Shown here piece by piece: positions 17,917-39,036 of a DNA stretch of 63,641 nucleotides. Source of the stretch: a virus; IMG/VR virus record IMGVR_UViG_3300036830_000465, positions 1-63,641 of that record; one strand, given 5' to 3'. The notes under the pieces were generated by a model. The model worked only from the letters and a program-made list of their open reading frames with translations. It was not told the origin of the DNA and did no database searches. How positions within the stretch are numbered: position 1 is the stretch's first letter; each line of letters begins with the position of its first letter. A program made the position numbers and the translations under genes.

Positions 17917-18116
17917 CCCGTCAAAAGAGAAATTCCCAATGTGATCGCGCTACCGATCGCGAGCATCCGCAGGCAACTGGGACACAGGCACCGCGGCGGC
18001 TCGGAGCAGTTGACGCACCGGCTGAAATTGAATTTCACGAAACGAAATTGTCCGGAAGGAAGTGCAGCGTTTGGAGCGGAAGGTGGCCGGAGGTTTCGGG
18101 CGGCTGTTTCATTCAA
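17901..18116 (-). CDS. Small C4-zinc plus transmembrane protein
   Basis: 71 residues. A cysteine cluster CVNCSEPPRCLCPSC (four or five Cys, possible zinc knuckle) is followed at once by one membrane helix (MLAIGSAITLGISLLTGWIL). The start is TTG, overlapping the stop of the KH-domain gene (TTGA). Probably an inner-membrane protein with a metal-binding cytoplasmic end. Function unknown. Confidence 0.5.
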   Translation of the reverse strand: MNETAARNLRPPSAPNAALPSGQFRFVKFNFSRCVNCSEPPRCLCPSCLRMLAIGSAITLGISLLTGWILK

Positions 18117-18339
18117 TGATCTCCAGACGGAACCGCCGCTGATATTTCATGCCGCAGCAGTTGAGAATGTGCCGCAGGGCTTCGGCGGTTTTGCCGAGCT
18201 TGCCGATGACCTTACCGATGTCGTTCTTATGCGTCCGCACTTCGAAAATGGTATTTTCCTCGCCGACGATTTCCATGATTTGCACATCTTCGGGATGGTC
18301 GACCAGGGCCTTGACGTTATCTTCAACCAACTGCTTCAT
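18109..18339 (-). CDS. khpA-like: KH-domain RNA-binding protein, KhpA-like
   Basis: 76 residues. The start ATG (MKQLVEDNVKALVDHPEDV) has TCAGGAG nine bases upstream. The whole length matches bacterial KhpA: the N-terminal helix LVEDNVKALVDHPEDVQ, the strand EENTIFEVR and the type II KH core GKVIGKLGKTAEALRHIL with its GxxG loop. KhpA acts with KhpB as a broad RNA chaperone in many bacteria; no KhpB is visible here. It overlaps the end of the MuF gene region and lies in the head operon, so it is made late. It could redirect host RNA handling or stabilise phage transcripts. Confidence 0.8.
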   Translation of the reverse strand: MKQLVEDNVKALVDHPEDVQIMEIVGEENTIFEVRTHKNDIGKVIGKLGKTAEALRHILNCCGMKYQRRFRLEIIE

Positions 18340-18368
18340 ATTGAGTTTCTCCTGAGTTAGAGCTTGAG

Positions 18369-19973
18369 CTAGAGCCATTGATCCACCTCGTCGCTGGGGA
18401 CATATAACGCCGTACAGCGACAATTCTTCACGACCACACCATTGGCGATGTAATATCCTCTACGTGTTTCGAGGGTAAATACATGACCGCTAAAATCACT
18501 TCTTTCGACAGAGACGATCTTGTCCGTGCCCGTCAGGACAGACTCACGCTTGAGCAAATGGCAGAGCGCTTCGGCTGCAGCATTCCCCTTATATCGAAGC
18601 GCCTCGTAGAGTGGGATTTCGAACGAACGGGCGGGCGACTGAAATTTGATACCGCCGAGATCGTTGCGCGTTTCAAGCGTGGCGAATCGGTCAAGGCGAT
18701 CGCCGCGGCCTTGAATACGTCCAGAAACGTTATCGGCCGCCGACTTCACGAATCGCGCATCACGCCCCGCAATAGAAGCGAAGGCATGCTTCAGAGAATG
18801 GCGAATTCTACGGCTGAGGAGCGGAGCCGTTGGTCTGATGCCGCCCATGCTGCAGTTCGCGGGAACCGCCAGCATTTCATCCGTACGGCCCTTACAAGGA
18901 ATTGCAAGATCGGTCGGGGAGAACTGGACATGATTGGCTGGCTCGGTGAGCGCGGCATTGCCTGCGTTCCGCAGAAGCCGGTCCAGTCGTATGTAATCGA
19001 TATCGCCTGCGCCCCGGTCGCCGTAGAAATTTACGTTCTGATTAGCAATCCGATGACTTTCGTGAAGCGCCGAAACCGAGCGATAGAAATCATGAAATCC
19101 GGATGGAGCTTTATCGGCGTTTGGATTTCGCAGAGACACCCGGTCTTGATCGAAGCGGCCGCTGATCACGTGGTCGCCTTCATTCAGGAGTCCAAGGGCT
19201 TTCCAGCCGGAGAGCGTCAGTACCGGGTGATTCGGGGTTCCGGTGAGCTTTACGCCGCTGGCCGTTTGGATGGTGACCACCTGACCGACATATAGCTGCC
19301 GGAACAGGCCTGCAGCATCCGGCGATTCAAATTCAGTCTCACCGATAAAGCAGTTCGCTATTTCTTCGATCGGTCCATTGGGGTCCAGGGGATAAAGGAG
19401 TCCGTTGCTGAAGGTGTCATCCATGTCCACCGCCTCCCGGATCTGATGCGACTCCCGCACCTTCTCATCCTGAGAGTTCGACCAGATCTTCTGGAGGTCG
19501 AGACCGGTCGCCTTCGCATTGATGTAGTCGCCGCCACTGGCGGCAATGCCGGTTTCCACCTGAGCAATCAACTCCGAGCGCGACACGCTCATTTCGTCGA
19601 ACAGGTCGCGGATATCCTTCGCGGTCTCGACAATGCTGTTGCCGTTTTTGATGCCTTCGGCCACGCGCACCGAAACGCGCTTCAGTGTGGTCTCGGCGAT
19701 ATCGTCGGAGACTTTGGCAACGCGGGACTTGGCAAACGCCGTCGCCTGCTTATCGAACAATTTCAGGTCGATGTTGACGCCGAGGTCGTGCAGCCCGGCA
19801 TTGTTCTGCGTGCCGGTCAGCTTCATCGCGCCTTTGATTTTGACCTGCAGCAGCTTGTTCCATTCCTTCTGGGACTCCGATAACACCTCAGTCACGGCAA
19901 TGTCGATCGAGTGGCCATCGTTGAAATCGATCTGCCGGGAGGCCTCCAGGCCGGTAATGCGATCGGCAATCAT
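18369..19973 (-). CDS. MuF/SPP1 gp7-like head morphogenesis protein with intein
   Basis: 534 residues from the first ATG. Residues 1-207 and 518-534 are the extein. The junction rebuilds EEIAN-CRCTALYVP, the cysteine-rich C-terminus typical of MuF-type proteins, which assist portal and minor capsid assembly. Residues 208-517 are an intein (own entry). Coding potential continues 38 codons upstream of the ATG (TIEEYQQKRSAKLLAYERE and so on) with no ATG, GTG, TTG or CTG, then meets a stop at 20088-20090. The natural N-terminus is therefore either the weak ATG at 19973 (CAGGG four bases upstream) or a portal fusion made by -1 slippage at 20081-20089. Confidence 0.8.
   Translation of the reverse strand: MIADRITGLEASRQIDFNDGHSIDIAVTEVLSESQKEWNKLLQVKIKGAMKLTGTQNNAGLHDLGVNIDLKLFDKQATAFAKSRVAKVSDDIAETTLKRVSVRVAEGIKNGNSIVETAKDIRDLFDEMSVSRSELIAQVETGIAASGGDYINAKATGLDLQKIWSNSQDEKVRESHQIREAVDMDDTFSNGLLYPLDPNGPIEEIANCFIGETEFESPDAAGLFRQLYVGQVVTIQTASGVKLTGTPNHPVLTLSGWKALGLLNEGDHVISGRFDQDRVSLRNPNADKAPSGFHDFYRSVSALHESHRIANQNVNFYGDRGAGDIDYIRLDRLLRNAGNAALTEPANHVQFSPTDLAIPCKGRTDEMLAVPANCSMGGIRPTAPLLSRRIRHSLKHAFASIAGRDARFVKSAADNVSGRIQGRGDRLDRFATLETRNDLGGIKFQSPARSFEIPLYEALRYKGNAAAEALCHLLKRESVLTGTDKIVSVERSDFSGHVFTLETRRGYYIANGVVVKNCRCTALYVPSDEVDQWL
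18423..19352 (-). mobile_element. Intein in head morphogenesis protein
   Basis: 310 residues, Cys208 to Asn517 of the host protein. Block A is CFIGETEFES, block B GTPNHPVLT with the TxxH motif (T246, H249), and blocks F/G are HVFTLETRRGYYIANGVVVKN followed by Cys +1. The penultimate residue is Lys instead of the usual His, as tolerated in some inteins. The middle (HDFYRSVSALHES, NFYGDRGAGDIDYIRLDRLL) is not a LAGLIDADG endonuclease in this frame. It is a separate conserved-looking insert, and its complementary strand encodes the endonuclease-like protein at 18483-19295. Splicing should restore a 224-residue (or longer) extein. Confidence 0.85.
18483..19295 (+). CDS. Antisense homing-endonuclease-like protein inside the intein
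   Basis: 270 residues on the strand opposite the intein, entirely inside its boundaries. About residues 20-45 and 55-92 are two helix-turn-helix units (LTLEQMAERFGCSIPLISKR; VKAIAAALNTSRNVIGRRL). About residues 145-235 resemble Vsr/EDxHD-type nuclease folds: GRGELD, VPQKPVQSYVIDIA, VAVEIYV, FVKRRNRAIEIMKSGWSFIGVW, with E147, D173 and E182 as candidate catalytic acids. A GAGGG Shine-Dalgarno lies seven bases before the ATG. Codons lie exactly opposite intein codons, so each is the reverse complement of the other. A DNA cutter located in an intein is expected to drive homing, but expression needs a promoter against the late operon. Confidence 0.75.
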   Translation: MTAKITSFDRDDLVRARQDRLTLEQMAERFGCSIPLISKRLVEWDFERTGGRLKFDTAEIVARFKRGESVKAIAAALNTSRNVIGRRLHESRITPRNRSEGMLQRMANSTAEERSRWSDAAHAAVRGNRQHFIRTALTRNCKIGRGELDMIGWLGERGIACVPQKPVQSYVIDIACAPVAVEIYVLISNPMTFVKRRNRAIEIMKSGWSFIGVWISQRHPVLIEAAADHVVAFIQESKGFPAGERQYRVIRGSGELYAAGRLDGDHLTDI

Positions 19974-35566: not shown

Positions 35567-36396
35567 GCGAAGCGACCCGCCCGCAGCTTCATTTTTCGGC
35601 GCTGGAGAAACTCTGGGCCTGCGGCGTCGCTTTCGCGCGCCGGTATCTGAACAAGGAGCGCGGGATCGCTCCCAGCTATATCCATGTGGGAAAGGCCGTC
35701 GATCACGCGGCCAACACCAACCTGCAACACAAAATCGATAGCGATTCCCTGCTGCCGGTCGAGCAGGTGGTCGACGAAGCCCGCGACGTTGTCACGCGCA
35801 GCATGGAAGACGAGGGGCTGCAGCTCGAGCCCGCCGATCGCGTCATCGGTGAGAAAGCCGCCAAGGCTGCGGTGGTCGATAAGACTGTTCGCGTCTGCAA
35901 GGCCCACGCCATGACTCTGGCGCCCCGGTTGAAACCAAAACGTGTTCAGGCGAAATGGTCGCTGGAAATTCCGGGAATGCCGTTTGACCTGGTGGGCACG
36001 CGCGACTTGGATGAAACCGACGATTCCGTCGCGGACCTGAAAACTTCAAAGCAATCGCCGAATAAAAATCAGGCCGTCACCAGCGATCAGCTCACCACCT
36101 ACGCCCTGTCGGTTCACGTAATCGGTAAAGTCCCGGTCCCGGTAAAAGTCCACCTCGACTACATCGTCGATTTGAAGACCGGAACGAAGGTGGCCGACCG
36201 GCTGACATCCACTCGCGGGAAAGATGATTTTGGCGTCCTGCTGCGCCGCCTGGAAAACGCATCGACCATTCTGCAGAAGGGCGCTTTTACCCCGGCCAAT
36301 CAGGGCCGCGACTGGTGGTGCAGCGTCCAGTACTGCGAGTTCGCCACAACCTGTCCCTATTTTCGAATGTCTCTGGCCGAATCAGAAGGAGAGTAA
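35563..36396 (+). CDS. Cas4-like PD-(D/E)xK nuclease with Fe-S cysteines
   Basis: 277 residues from the ATG at 35563. The first cysteine is in LWACGVAFARRYL; the last three are WWCSVQYCEFATTCPYF, together a likely 4Fe-4S ligand set. Between them lies the RecB-like nuclease core, with SLEIPGMPFDLVGTRDLDETDDSVADLKTSK (Asp and Asp-Leu-Lys of motifs II/III) and SDQLTTYALSV. It acts as an exonuclease that trims 5' ends for the RecT annealer encoded next. Confidence 0.75.
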   Translation: MSEATRPQLHFSALEKLWACGVAFARRYLNKERGIAPSYIHVGKAVDHAANTNLQHKIDSDSLLPVEQVVDEARDVVTRSMEDEGLQLEPADRVIGEKAAKAAVVDKTVRVCKAHAMTLAPRLKPKRVQAKWSLEIPGMPFDLVGTRDLDETDDSVADLKTSKQSPNKNQAVTSDQLTTYALSVHVIGKVPVPVKVHLDYIVDLKTGTKVADRLTSTRGKDDFGVLLRRLENASTILQKGAFTPANQGRDWWCSVQYCEFATTCPYFRMSLAESEGE

Positions 36397-36398
36397 AC

Positions 36399-37646
36399 AT
36401 GTCCACAGAAGTCGCGAAGGTCGATCAGGTAAAAATCGAATTATTAAAACCCATCAACGATGAGAACAATGTCCGCGCATTACTGGCTCAGTACCGCAAG
36501 GCATTCGAAGTCGCCGCAGTCAAGCACCTCGACGTCGACCGGCTGCTTCGCGTCGCGCTGATGACAGTATCCCGCAGTTCCGCATTGTTGGAGTGCACCG
36601 CAGCCAGCCTCCTTGGTTCAGTGATGCTGTCGGCCCAATTGGGCCTGGACATTGCGGCCCGCGAAGCATATTTGGTGCCCTTCAAAAACAAATACGGGAA
36701 GCGCGAGTGTCAGCTGATCCCGGATTATCGCGGGATCATGAAGCTGGTCCGGCAGAGCGGAATGGTTTCAAATTTCCGCGCGCGCTGCGTCTACAGGCAA
36801 GACAAGCTCGACATCGAAGAGGGCCTCAACCCGAGATTGGTGCACGTTCAATCCTATGAGCACGACTTCAAGGACGAAGACCTGATCGGCGTGTACACGG
36901 TCGCCGATTTCTGCGGTCCTGATGGTGCCCCTAGCGGCCTGAAGGATTTTCAATTCATGCCAATCGGTGCGATTAAAAGAATTCGCGCACGCAGCAAGGC
37001 CAGTAATGACGGACCGTGGGTGACCGACTTCGCGGAAATGGCGATGAAGACCGGCATCAAGCACCATGCGAAAACGCTGCCGCAGAATATTCAGATTGCC
37101 ACCGCGCTGCAGCTGGACGACCGGGCGACGATGGCACGGCCTCAGAAAATACAGATGTTTGAAGAAAATGGATTGACCACGATCGGCATTGATCCGGTTG
37201 AAGACCGCGACGATGCTCCGGAACGTGCCCGCGGCGTTGTCGACATCAATTCCCTGAAAGCGGGCTCCGAAGAAAACCGCGGCCACGGCAACGACAACCT
37301 CGATCAGGTTGGCAAGGACGCCGGCAAACCTGAGACGAAAACCGATAAAACTGAGACGCTCGACCAGAAACGCGCACGCCAGACCGCCGAAGCTGAGACG
37401 AAGAAGACCTCCCCTGAGAAGGCGGCCGCCTCTGACGGCGCCGATCCGGAAGCCGCGCTAACTCAGGAACAGCAGGAACAGCTGGAGACGGTCCGTCTCA
37501 ACCAGAACGTCGAGCCGCGCACCTGGAATACGTGGATCCGCAAAGCCTTCGATATCAAGTTGAGTTCCCATCTGCGGCAAAAACATTTCCCCCGCTGCCT
37601 CGCCTGGTGCGAAGCGGGAGGTCAGGAGCAACAGGATGCGCAGTAA
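36399..37646 (+). CDS. recT-like: RecT-family single-strand annealing protein
   Basis: 415 residues from the ATG at 36399 (AAGGAGAG upstream). LMTVSRSSALLECTAASLLGSVMLSAQLGLDIAAREAYLVPFKN and LIPDYRGIMKLVRQSG are the RecT hallmark blocks, followed by the WVTDFAEMAMKTGIKHHAKTLP segment. It anneals complementary single strands in phage recombination. The last about 110 residues are a charged, K/E-rich tail, which is not part of the conserved fold and may bind partners. Confidence 0.85.
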   Translation: MSTEVAKVDQVKIELLKPINDENNVRALLAQYRKAFEVAAVKHLDVDRLLRVALMTVSRSSALLECTAASLLGSVMLSAQLGLDIAAREAYLVPFKNKYGKRECQLIPDYRGIMKLVRQSGMVSNFRARCVYRQDKLDIEEGLNPRLVHVQSYEHDFKDEDLIGVYTVADFCGPDGAPSGLKDFQFMPIGAIKRIRARSKASNDGPWVTDFAEMAMKTGIKHHAKTLPQNIQIATALQLDDRATMARPQKIQMFEENGLTTIGIDPVEDRDDAPERARGVVDINSLKAGSEENRGHGNDNLDQVGKDAGKPETKTDKTETLDQKRARQTAEAETKKTSPEKAAASDGADPEAALTQEQQEQLETVRLNQNVEPRTWNTWIRKAFDIKLSSHLRQKHFPRCLAWCEAGGQEQQDAQ

Positions 37647-39036
37647 CAACGATCGGCCGGCGGTTCATGTGACCGCCCTCCGCATACACAACTTCATGGG
37701 TCTTTCGGATTTCGAGATCAAGCCCGGCAAAGTAACTCTCGTCCGGGGTTCCAACGGCGTCGGAAAGACATCGATCCTCGAAGCATTCAAAGCCGTTTTG
37801 AAAGGAGGTCATGATGCGAGTTTAATCCGGAAGGGCGAGGACGGCGCCGAGCTCGGCCTCGTCCTTTCCGATGGCGCGGACATTCAGAAGCGCATCCGCC
37901 AGGGTGATTCCAAAACGCAGGTCGACCACCCGGACTTCGGGCGGCTGCCCTCATCGGCGAAGTACCTGGGGAGTCTCTGCGATGCGTTCGCCGTCAATCC
38001 GGTGGAGTTCCTGACGGCCAAACCGGACAAGCGCGTGGAGCTGCTGCTGTCGGCGATTCCCATGACGGTGGCGGCTGTCGATCTGGCCGGAATACTCGAG
38101 CTGTGCTCGTCAAAGCCAGACCTGTCCCGGCACGCGCTGCAGGTGATCGCCGGTATCGAGAAAGACCTGTACGACCAGCGCACCGGGGTGAATCGGGCGG
38201 CGAAGGAGAAGCGGGCGACGATCAGCGAAATGCGGCGCGCGTTGCCGAAAGAGTCCGGAAACGCCGAAGAGACTGAACTGGTCAACACCGAGCGCGAATA
38301 TCGAGACATTCAGGCCAGCTGGGAAAAACGTAAAACGGAAGTCATCGAAATTCGCGCCAATGAGATCGGCCTGATCAAGGATGAAGGCCGCGCGTTTGCG
38401 GCGAAACACTTCGCAGAACGTGATCGTGAAATCGAGGCGATCCGCAAAAAGTATCAGGCCGAGGTGGATGCATATGCAGAATCCAAACAGGCCGAGGCCG
38501 CAGCGCTCAATTCAAAGTCGGATGAAAGCCTTCAGGAACTCGCCGAGGAGCGCACTTCACAAACCCAGGAATTTGAATCTCGAATTGCCAGGTTGCGCGC
38601 GGATAGAGACGCATTCGTTCGCTCCAGGGACGCCCGTATCGCCGTCGCCAAAATGGAAAGCGGCGCCGCCACGCTGGAATCCGATTCCTCCGCCTTCTCC
38701 GAAGCGCTGAAGATGCTCGACGACGTGCGCGGCAACCTGACCGAGCAGCTGCCCATCAAAGGCGTGACGCTCCGCGACGGCGACATCTACGTTGACGGGA
38801 TTCCGTTTGACCGCGTGAATGAGTCCCGGCGCATGCGGCTGGCGATTGAGATCGCCATGCTCCGCTCCGGAAACCTTCCGTTCATTGTGGTCGACGGCGC
38901 CGAAGCGCTGGATGCGAACAACCTGGAATTGCTGGCGGACACGGCCGTGGAGATGGGCGTCCAGATGGTTCTCGGTCTGGTGGCGGATGGGCCGAACGGG
39001 GAGCCGCGGCCGCTGGAAATAAAACAGATTGCATGA
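37636..39036 (+). CDS. SMC/RecF-like ATPase
   Basis: 466 residues. Walker A is GSNGVGKTSI, near the N-terminus after a strand VTALRIHNFMGLSDFEI (the RecF/SbcC-type start). Then come a long coiled coil (EREYRDIQASWEKRKTEVIEIRANEIGLIKDEGRAFAAKHF, shown in part) and the ABC-like C-terminus LPFIVVDGAEALDANNLELL with Walker B. It likely works with the Cas4-like nuclease and RecT in recombination, like SbcC or Gam-type complexes. It overlaps RecT by 11 bases. Confidence 0.75.
   Translation: MRSNNDRPAVHVTALRIHNFMGLSDFEIKPGKVTLVRGSNGVGKTSILEAFKAVLKGGHDASLIRKGEDGAELGLVLSDGADIQKRIRQGDSKTQVDHPDFGRLPSSAKYLGSLCDAFAVNPVEFLTAKPDKRVELLLSAIPMTVAAVDLAGILELCSSKPDLSRHALQVIAGIEKDLYDQRTGVNRAAKEKRATISEMRRALPKESGNAEETELVNTEREYRDIQASWEKRKTEVIEIRANEIGLIKDEGRAFAAKHFAERDREIEAIRKKYQAEVDAYAESKQAEAAALNSKSDESLQELAEERTSQTQEFESRIARLRADRDAFVRSRDARIAVAKMESGAATLESDSSAFSEALKMLDDVRGNLTEQLPIKGVTLRDGDIYVDGIPFDRVNESRRMRLAIEIAMLRSGNLPFIVVDGAEALDANNLELLADTAVEMGVQMVLGLVADGPNGEPRPLEIKQIA

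Follow-up and report, generated by a model that had tools for sequence, protein, structure and literature searches.

A MuF-type head gene in the virus sequence examined here contains an intein, and the complementary strand of the intein DNA carries a gene for a protein that looks like a homing endonuclease. The window, that is the whole stretch of DNA analysed, comprises 63,641 nucleotides of IMG/VR record IMGVR_UViG_3300036830_000465. The arrangement is best explained as that of a mobile intein in which the DNA strand opposite the intein frame encodes the homing endonuclease; a probability of roughly 0.9 is assigned to this reading. An initial reading of the window from its letters alone (the sequence-only reading) had proposed that the intein outsources homing to the opposite strand, and this is supported by the conserved register of the two frames, nuclease homology and signs of mobility. 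The antisense gene and the selection acting upon it are supported as well as sequence allows, while the mobility signs and homology point to homing by the nuclease.

The host gene is a single unbroken open reading frame (ORF) of 534 amino acids (18369-19973, minus strand) with matches to Pfam Phage_Mu_F (1.3e-8) and to head morphogenesis in PHROG, adjoined by the portal and terminase genes. The intein of 310 residues extends from Cys208 to Asn517 of the ORF (Cys1 to Asn310, with Cys at position +1; 18423-19352, minus strand) and separates an N-extein (19353-19973, minus strand) from a C-extein (18369-18422, minus strand, stop included). These limits, the block B sequence GTPNHP and the C-terminal end GVVVKN/C were as first read, and the insert matched Pfam Intein_splicing (4.4e-9). 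Splicing blocks A, B, F and G are present (Cys1, TxxH, the terminal Asn and the +1 Cys, from Pfam and sequence) and C1, T39, H42 and N310 are kept in homologues. The penultimate residue is Lys, where His is usual before the terminal Asn. In the structural model, an N-terminal Hint half (intein residues 1-66, blocks A and B; 19155-19352, minus strand; pLDDT mostly >90) and a C-terminal Hint half (residues 270-310, blocks F and G; 18423-18545, minus strand; pLDDT ≥90) are accompanied by a middle predicted to be disordered (sense residues 126-268, 143 residues; 18549-18977, minus strand; pLDDT <50; w_sense 0.54). The closest structural matches of the model were mini-inteins, that of Mtu RecA being the best (Z 13.0, 106 residues, rmsd 1.8). 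By its blocks and profile match the insert is a Hint-type Cys1 intein, the splicing of which we infer. Directly downstream of the MuF gene lies a gene for a KhpA/KhpB-type KH-domain RNA-binding protein (18109-18354, minus strand; Pfam KH_KhpA-B 4.2e-21), a normally cellular protein that is here found within a phage structural module.

As the sequence-only reading had remarked, the intein frame holds no recognisable nuclease: Pfam and other profile searches of the sense frame returned no match to LAGLIDADG or HNH. An in-frame endonuclease between blocks B and F, the mark of a canonical endonuclease-bearing intein, was not found. The sense-frame middle was rejected as the endonuclease, having neither a family match nor a predicted fold, and a split intein or fractured gene was rejected on account of the unbroken MuF ORF.

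The antisense gene (18483-19295, plus strand) encodes 270 amino acids, lies wholly inside the intein and is in exact codon-on-codon register with the intein frame; its length, position and register in the window were all borne out. AlphaFold, supplied with 47 sequences, yielded a model of the antisense protein with a mean pLDDT of 88.9, in which two helix-turn-helix (HTH) units and a long helix are accompanied by an alpha/beta nuclease core and, at the C-terminus, a hairpin. The first HTH (residues 10-43; 18510-18611, plus strand) was located from the AlphaFold helices and is missing from a Salmonella phage group; the second (residues 57-90; 18651-18752, plus strand) was located from the model and a match to Pfam HTH_23 (3.9e-5). 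The Vsr/EDxHD-like core occupies residues 145-239 (18915-19199, plus strand), with putative catalytic residues E147 (18921-18923), D173 (18999-19001) and E182 (19026-19028), all on the plus strand. The C-terminal beta hairpin (residues 246-261; 19218-19265, plus strand) includes YRVIRG (residues 247-252), which lies opposite intein TPNHPV (19221-19238).

The two HTH units and Vsr/EDxHD-like core named by the sequence-only reading were recovered by the model and by profile searches. The family profile matched the solved structures 3hrl (1.5e-8) and I-Bth0305I (3r3p; 1.4e-6), and family members matched REase_MTES_1575, DUF559 and Vsr, Pfam families of the Vsr clan. Foldseek placed Vsr (1cw0), 3hrl and 3r3p at the top ranks, with weak E-values of 0.07-0.09. 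E147 is nearly invariant. The HD residues of the EDxHD motif showed no clear conservation in alignments A1 and A5 or in the profile alignment, which makes the protein a candidate member of the EDxHD family in the strict sense. On these sequence matches and the model, the antisense protein resembles a Vsr/EDxHD-type homing endonuclease, nearest to Vsr and I-Bth0305I. A gene of Burkholderia phage BcepSaruman (29993-30463) annotated as a GIY-YIG homing endonuclease also matched the HTH-bearing N-terminal part of a family member, which suggests that DNA-binding modules have been swapped between endonuclease families.

The start signals of the antisense gene are overprinted on block F. The ATG (18483-18485, plus strand) is the complement of the block F His290 codon CAT, and it is preceded by a Shine-Dalgarno-like GAGGG (18471-18475, plus strand) ending seven bases before it, exactly as first noticed; the GAG of this site complements CTC, the codon for Leu294 of block F. 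Across the family the ribosome site, GAGG, arises as the complement of the block F Leu codon (CTC) together with its preceding codon, and nearly all copies have the ATG approximately 20 codons away from the end of the intein. Among 92 non-redundant inteins selected by the sense frame, 84 have a Shine-Dalgarno-like site, 76 use CAT for the block F His (compared with 39% in exteins; P 1e-17) and 71 use CTC for the block F Leu (compared with 24% in exteins; P 6e-27), P values that overstate independence because the copies share ancestry. The CTC bias was also seen in 47 of 58 homologues. This synonymous choice is demanded by the antisense start and not by the amino acids. No sigma-70-like promoter was found in the window between 18050 and 19400.

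The arrangement is real and is no peculiarity of this phage; it belongs to a large conserved family that, from sequence comparison, encompasses hundreds of phage sequences and many bacterial phyla. A tblastn search with the antisense protein matched 115 phage records (best E 3e-39 over 97% of the length) from hosts including Gordonia, Klebsiella, Salmonella, Pseudomonas, Vibrio, Idiomarinaceae, Edwardsiella and Cronobacter, and the matches listed lay mostly beneath genes annotated as head or hypothetical proteins. Scanning for exact peptides of the window protein brought up no relative, and alignments A1 and A7 were too divergent for some pattern scans. In a set of 88 loci made up of the window, annotated phages and viral contigs, some of them near-identical, the intein was on the opposite strand of the nuclease in 87, with the same register in 87 of 87. 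Because these loci were partly found using the antisense protein, two further samples were drawn by the intein frame only. The antisense nuclease was present in 80 of 80 viral loci selected by intein block F and in 35 of 35 full-length intein matches in bacterial genome contigs, one of them shortened, so that the question of whether other MuF inteins of this type keep an antisense ORF in this register, raised by the sequence-only reading, was answered positively. Block F matched 395 viral sequences, which puts the viral copies at roughly 400. Six short genome matches around block B were other inteins with no antisense gene. The 35 genome contigs were labelled Pseudomonadota, Bacteroidota, Actinomycetota, Chloroflexota, Bacillota, Planctomycetota, Gemmatimonadota, Spirochaetota, Campylobacterota, Chlamydia-like and candidate-phylum bins.

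All host genes tested among the family members encode minor head proteins (MuF, Phage_min_cap2 or VG15), standing alone or fused to the portal protein. Among the records read, annotators nearly always list the head protein only. An exception is Salmonella phage PK2 (L215:1504-2313), whose record gives the antisense frame an entry of its own, as hypothetical protein XRA40007.1. In Salmonella phages NBSal007, ZCSE7 and vB_SenS_TUMS_E4 the head gene is annotated NAD+--asparagine ADP-ribosyltransferase, probably a misannotated MuF protein.

Evidence of mobility was obtained from related genes in which the element is present (LSPA1 and NCTh5) or absent (K1ind2 and SETP3) at one site. The N-exteins of LSPA1 and NCTh5 are 69.0% identical, whereas their inteins are 98.3% identical. 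The exteins of LSPA1 are 87% identical to those of intein-less K1ind2, and those of NCTh5 are 89% identical to those of intein-less SETP3; both intein-less genes have the clean empty site PPAHPN/CRS, and the absence of the intein from K1ind2 has been reported (PMC6776784). The contrast between extein and intein identities, together with the empty sites, therefore indicates that the intein DNA moved between diverged genes. The N-extein of LSPA1 matches 493 phage records and the intein 63 Salmonella records.

Association of nuclease and intein is not absolute, since one free-standing and one shortened nuclease were found. At L046:563-1306 a free-standing family nuclease is convergent with an intein-less MuF gene, with a four-base overlap at the gene end, and that MuF gene contains 15 antisense stops. 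This nuclease probably escaped from an intein, since it clusters with intein-embedded copies (98% SH-aLRT in an unrooted tree) and retains part of the hairpin that faces block B in embedded copies; on the same grounds, an ancestral free-standing state is less likely. At L193:3006-3435 the nuclease has lost its N-terminal part while the intein is complete, a possible stage of decay. A further MuF gene, at L109:1324-4182, contains two tandem inteins, each opposite its own antisense family frame.

A real nuclease might alternatively serve mainly to damage intein-less competitor phages, or other host or phage DNA, with spread of the intein as a by-product. A co-infecting phage would be harmed if its intein-less MuF gene were cut, and the gene is intact almost always, which goes beyond the usual picture of homing endonucleases, in which decay follows fixation (PMC1654191). 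Mobility between diverged genes is nevertheless visible and the tight tie to one class of insertion site fits homing, making a mainly destructive role improbable; the two roles are not mutually exclusive.

Selection on the two frames was estimated with an overlap-aware test on 18 pairs of related inteins, in which single-base changes within codons were classified by their consequence in each frame, opportunities were counted, stop-making changes were excluded and pairs were bootstrapped; the resulting values are pairwise counts allowing one change per codon and no tree model. The exteins gave w_sense 0.09 and w_anti 0.92 (0.67-1.47), as expected for a single coding frame, and the final 20 codons of the intein, which the antisense gene does not cover, gave 0.14 and 1.52. 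In the block F region, where the antisense gene starts, the values were 0.33 and 0.43. The intein core gave w_sense 0.54, which may reflect bias or weak constraint, and w_anti 0.13 (0.10-0.19). From intein residue 62 past DFHGD the values were 0.26 and 0.11, and in blocks A and B 0.16 and 0.32. Constraint on the antisense frame therefore sets in where its start codon lies; at the ends selection restrains both frames, and the middle is the antisense gene's own. Around blocks A/B and DFHGD both frames are under purifying selection, with w well below 1, and the antisense frame is dominant in the core. The overlapping-gene selection check suggested by the sequence-only reading thus came out in favour of the antisense frame. 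The nuclease gene is not confined to spare intein sequence: it begins across from block F, its C-terminal hairpin faces block B, and in both places both frames are under selection.

These values also bear upon the suggestion that a decayed or domesticated endonuclease has been kept for another function, for example DNA binding or regulation of MuF by antisense RNA. Antisense RNA over MuF could indeed be regulatory, and L193 combines a shortened copy with a complete intein. Against this stand a w_anti of 0.13 in recent pairs, the lack of any variation at D173 and E182 across 46-47 diverse copies and the intactness of nearly all copies, and such a change of role is accordingly very improbable.

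The site-by-site pattern of change is that of an antisense gene. In the core, changes at sense codon positions 1, 2 and 3 numbered 900, 384 and 551, position 1 being the antisense silent position; in the exteins they numbered 620, 439 and 1314, with position 3 highest. Antisense Y170, D173 and E182 are invariant in 46 embedded copies, with Val/Ile, Val/Ile and Phe/Leu respectively as the opposite sense residues. In block B it is the sense His and Thr that are invariant in 46 copies and the antisense residues that vary (Val/Met; Gly/Cys/Arg). These per-residue and codon-position counts, with homology to unrelated nucleases, led to rejection of the antisense frame as a shadow of a conserved intein frame. 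Expected numbers of antisense stops were computed from the exteins of the same genes, using non-redundant copies with G+C contents from 36 to 71%. In the two sense-selected sets the intein cores contained 1 stop against 271 expected and 2 against 120 expected, or 3 against approximately 391 when pooled. Homologous inteins with antisense stops and no nuclease-like matches, which the sequence-only reading held would make the ORF a chance opening, did not occur. In the window alone the open frame is weak evidence, because antisense-stop codons make up 0.94% of codons in its genes and a 270-codon opening has a chance of approximately 8% at local codon usage; the comparative evidence is decisive. 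That the ORF is a chance or shadow frame arising from intein composition and conservation is refuted and retains next to no probability: such an opening is not very unlikely in the window alone and codon-on-codon register does transmit conservation between frames, but the deficit of stops, the shift of changes from position 3 in the exteins to position 1 in the core, the free-standing homologue at L046 and the fact that the antisense protein, not the sense middle, has a predicted fold and matches unrelated nucleases all stand against it.

Under the preferred reading of a mobile intein with a complementary-strand endonuclease, translation of the MuF strand would run through the insert, the two Hint halves would join around the disordered loop and the intein would splice out to leave an intact head protein. 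On the other strand, the ribosome site and the ATG complementary to block F would start translation of the HTH-HTH-Vsr/EDxHD-like nuclease, which would cut intein-less MuF genes at or near the N/C insertion site; repair from an intein-bearing copy would then insert intein and nuclease gene together. Of these steps we infer splicing, antisense transcription, cleavage and the cleavage site. A RecT-family recombinase gene is present in the window (36315-37646, plus strand; 8.8e-35) and is followed by an AAA/SMC-like ATPase gene, the pair spanning 36315-39036 (plus strand). This RecT could serve in repair or recombination during homing.

Canonical inteins with an in-frame LAGLIDADG or HNH endonuclease are alike in their Hint splicing domain and in occupying a conserved site of a conserved gene, and canonical mobile inteins also in their sporadic distribution with empty sites and in an endonuclease carried by the intein DNA. 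They differ in that the endonuclease is an in-frame domain, whereas here it is a separate complementary-strand gene, the sense middle is disordered filler, and blocks B and F are double coding. The 'fractured genes' of Dassa and colleagues (2009) are reportedly split inteins with a nearby EDxHD-type endonuclease gene. They are alike in tying an EDxHD-type nuclease to an intein; there, host gene and intein are split with the nuclease between the halves, whereas here the MuF ORF is unbroken. I-Bth0305I is an intron-encoded prototype on the usual strand. It and the EDxHD family (3r3p; PMC3943268) share with the antisense protein a Vsr-like core, phage origin and an elongated protein with DNA-binding modules; here, by contrast, the HD residues are not clearly conserved and there are two N-terminal HTH units.

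Nuclear group I introns are already known to carry homing endonuclease genes in antisense orientation, and one of these, I-DsqI, is an active enzyme (PMC9548176). I-DsqI is alike in that its gene lies within a self-splicing element and runs antisense to the host gene, but the element is an RNA intron in myxomycete rDNA, the enzyme is of the His-Cys box family and no translated sense frame runs through the gene, hence there is no double coding. In phage ShiLan an out-of-frame HNH endonuclease lies in a methylase insertion on the same strand, with no intein or intron (PMC11855218). It too is a phage endonuclease hidden in another frame of an insertion that is open in the host frame, differing in strand and family, in the lack of an intein or intron and in having no detectable ribosome site. 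For inteins, no description of an antisense endonuclease was found in the literature searched, which did not cover the preprint of Gosselin et al. 2025 (10.1101/2025.01.02.630785); this preprint concerns actinobacteriophage inteins, has 'Non-Canonical Architecture' in its title and might describe Gordonia or Mycobacterium members.

It is likely that the family represents a widespread, old and previously undescribed class of mobile head-gene inteins, characterised by a codon-on-codon antisense homing endonuclease with start signals from the complement of block F and a hairpin overprinted on block B. Inteins are known to carry their endonuclease as a domain in frame; in this family a gene of the other strand encodes it, and hundreds of phage sequences retain the pair. 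The finding accounts for sequence annotated merely as the middle of a head protein. With approximately 270 codons that code on both strands and hundreds of natural replicates, the family provides a test bed for overlapping-gene theory and for the origin of new protein segments by overprinting. Homing, interference and splicing are separately testable, because changes altering one frame only can be chosen. A selfish element can part splicing from mobility within one DNA footprint and, if the proposed account is true, a single DNA segment carries the instructions for splicing on one strand and for homing on the other.
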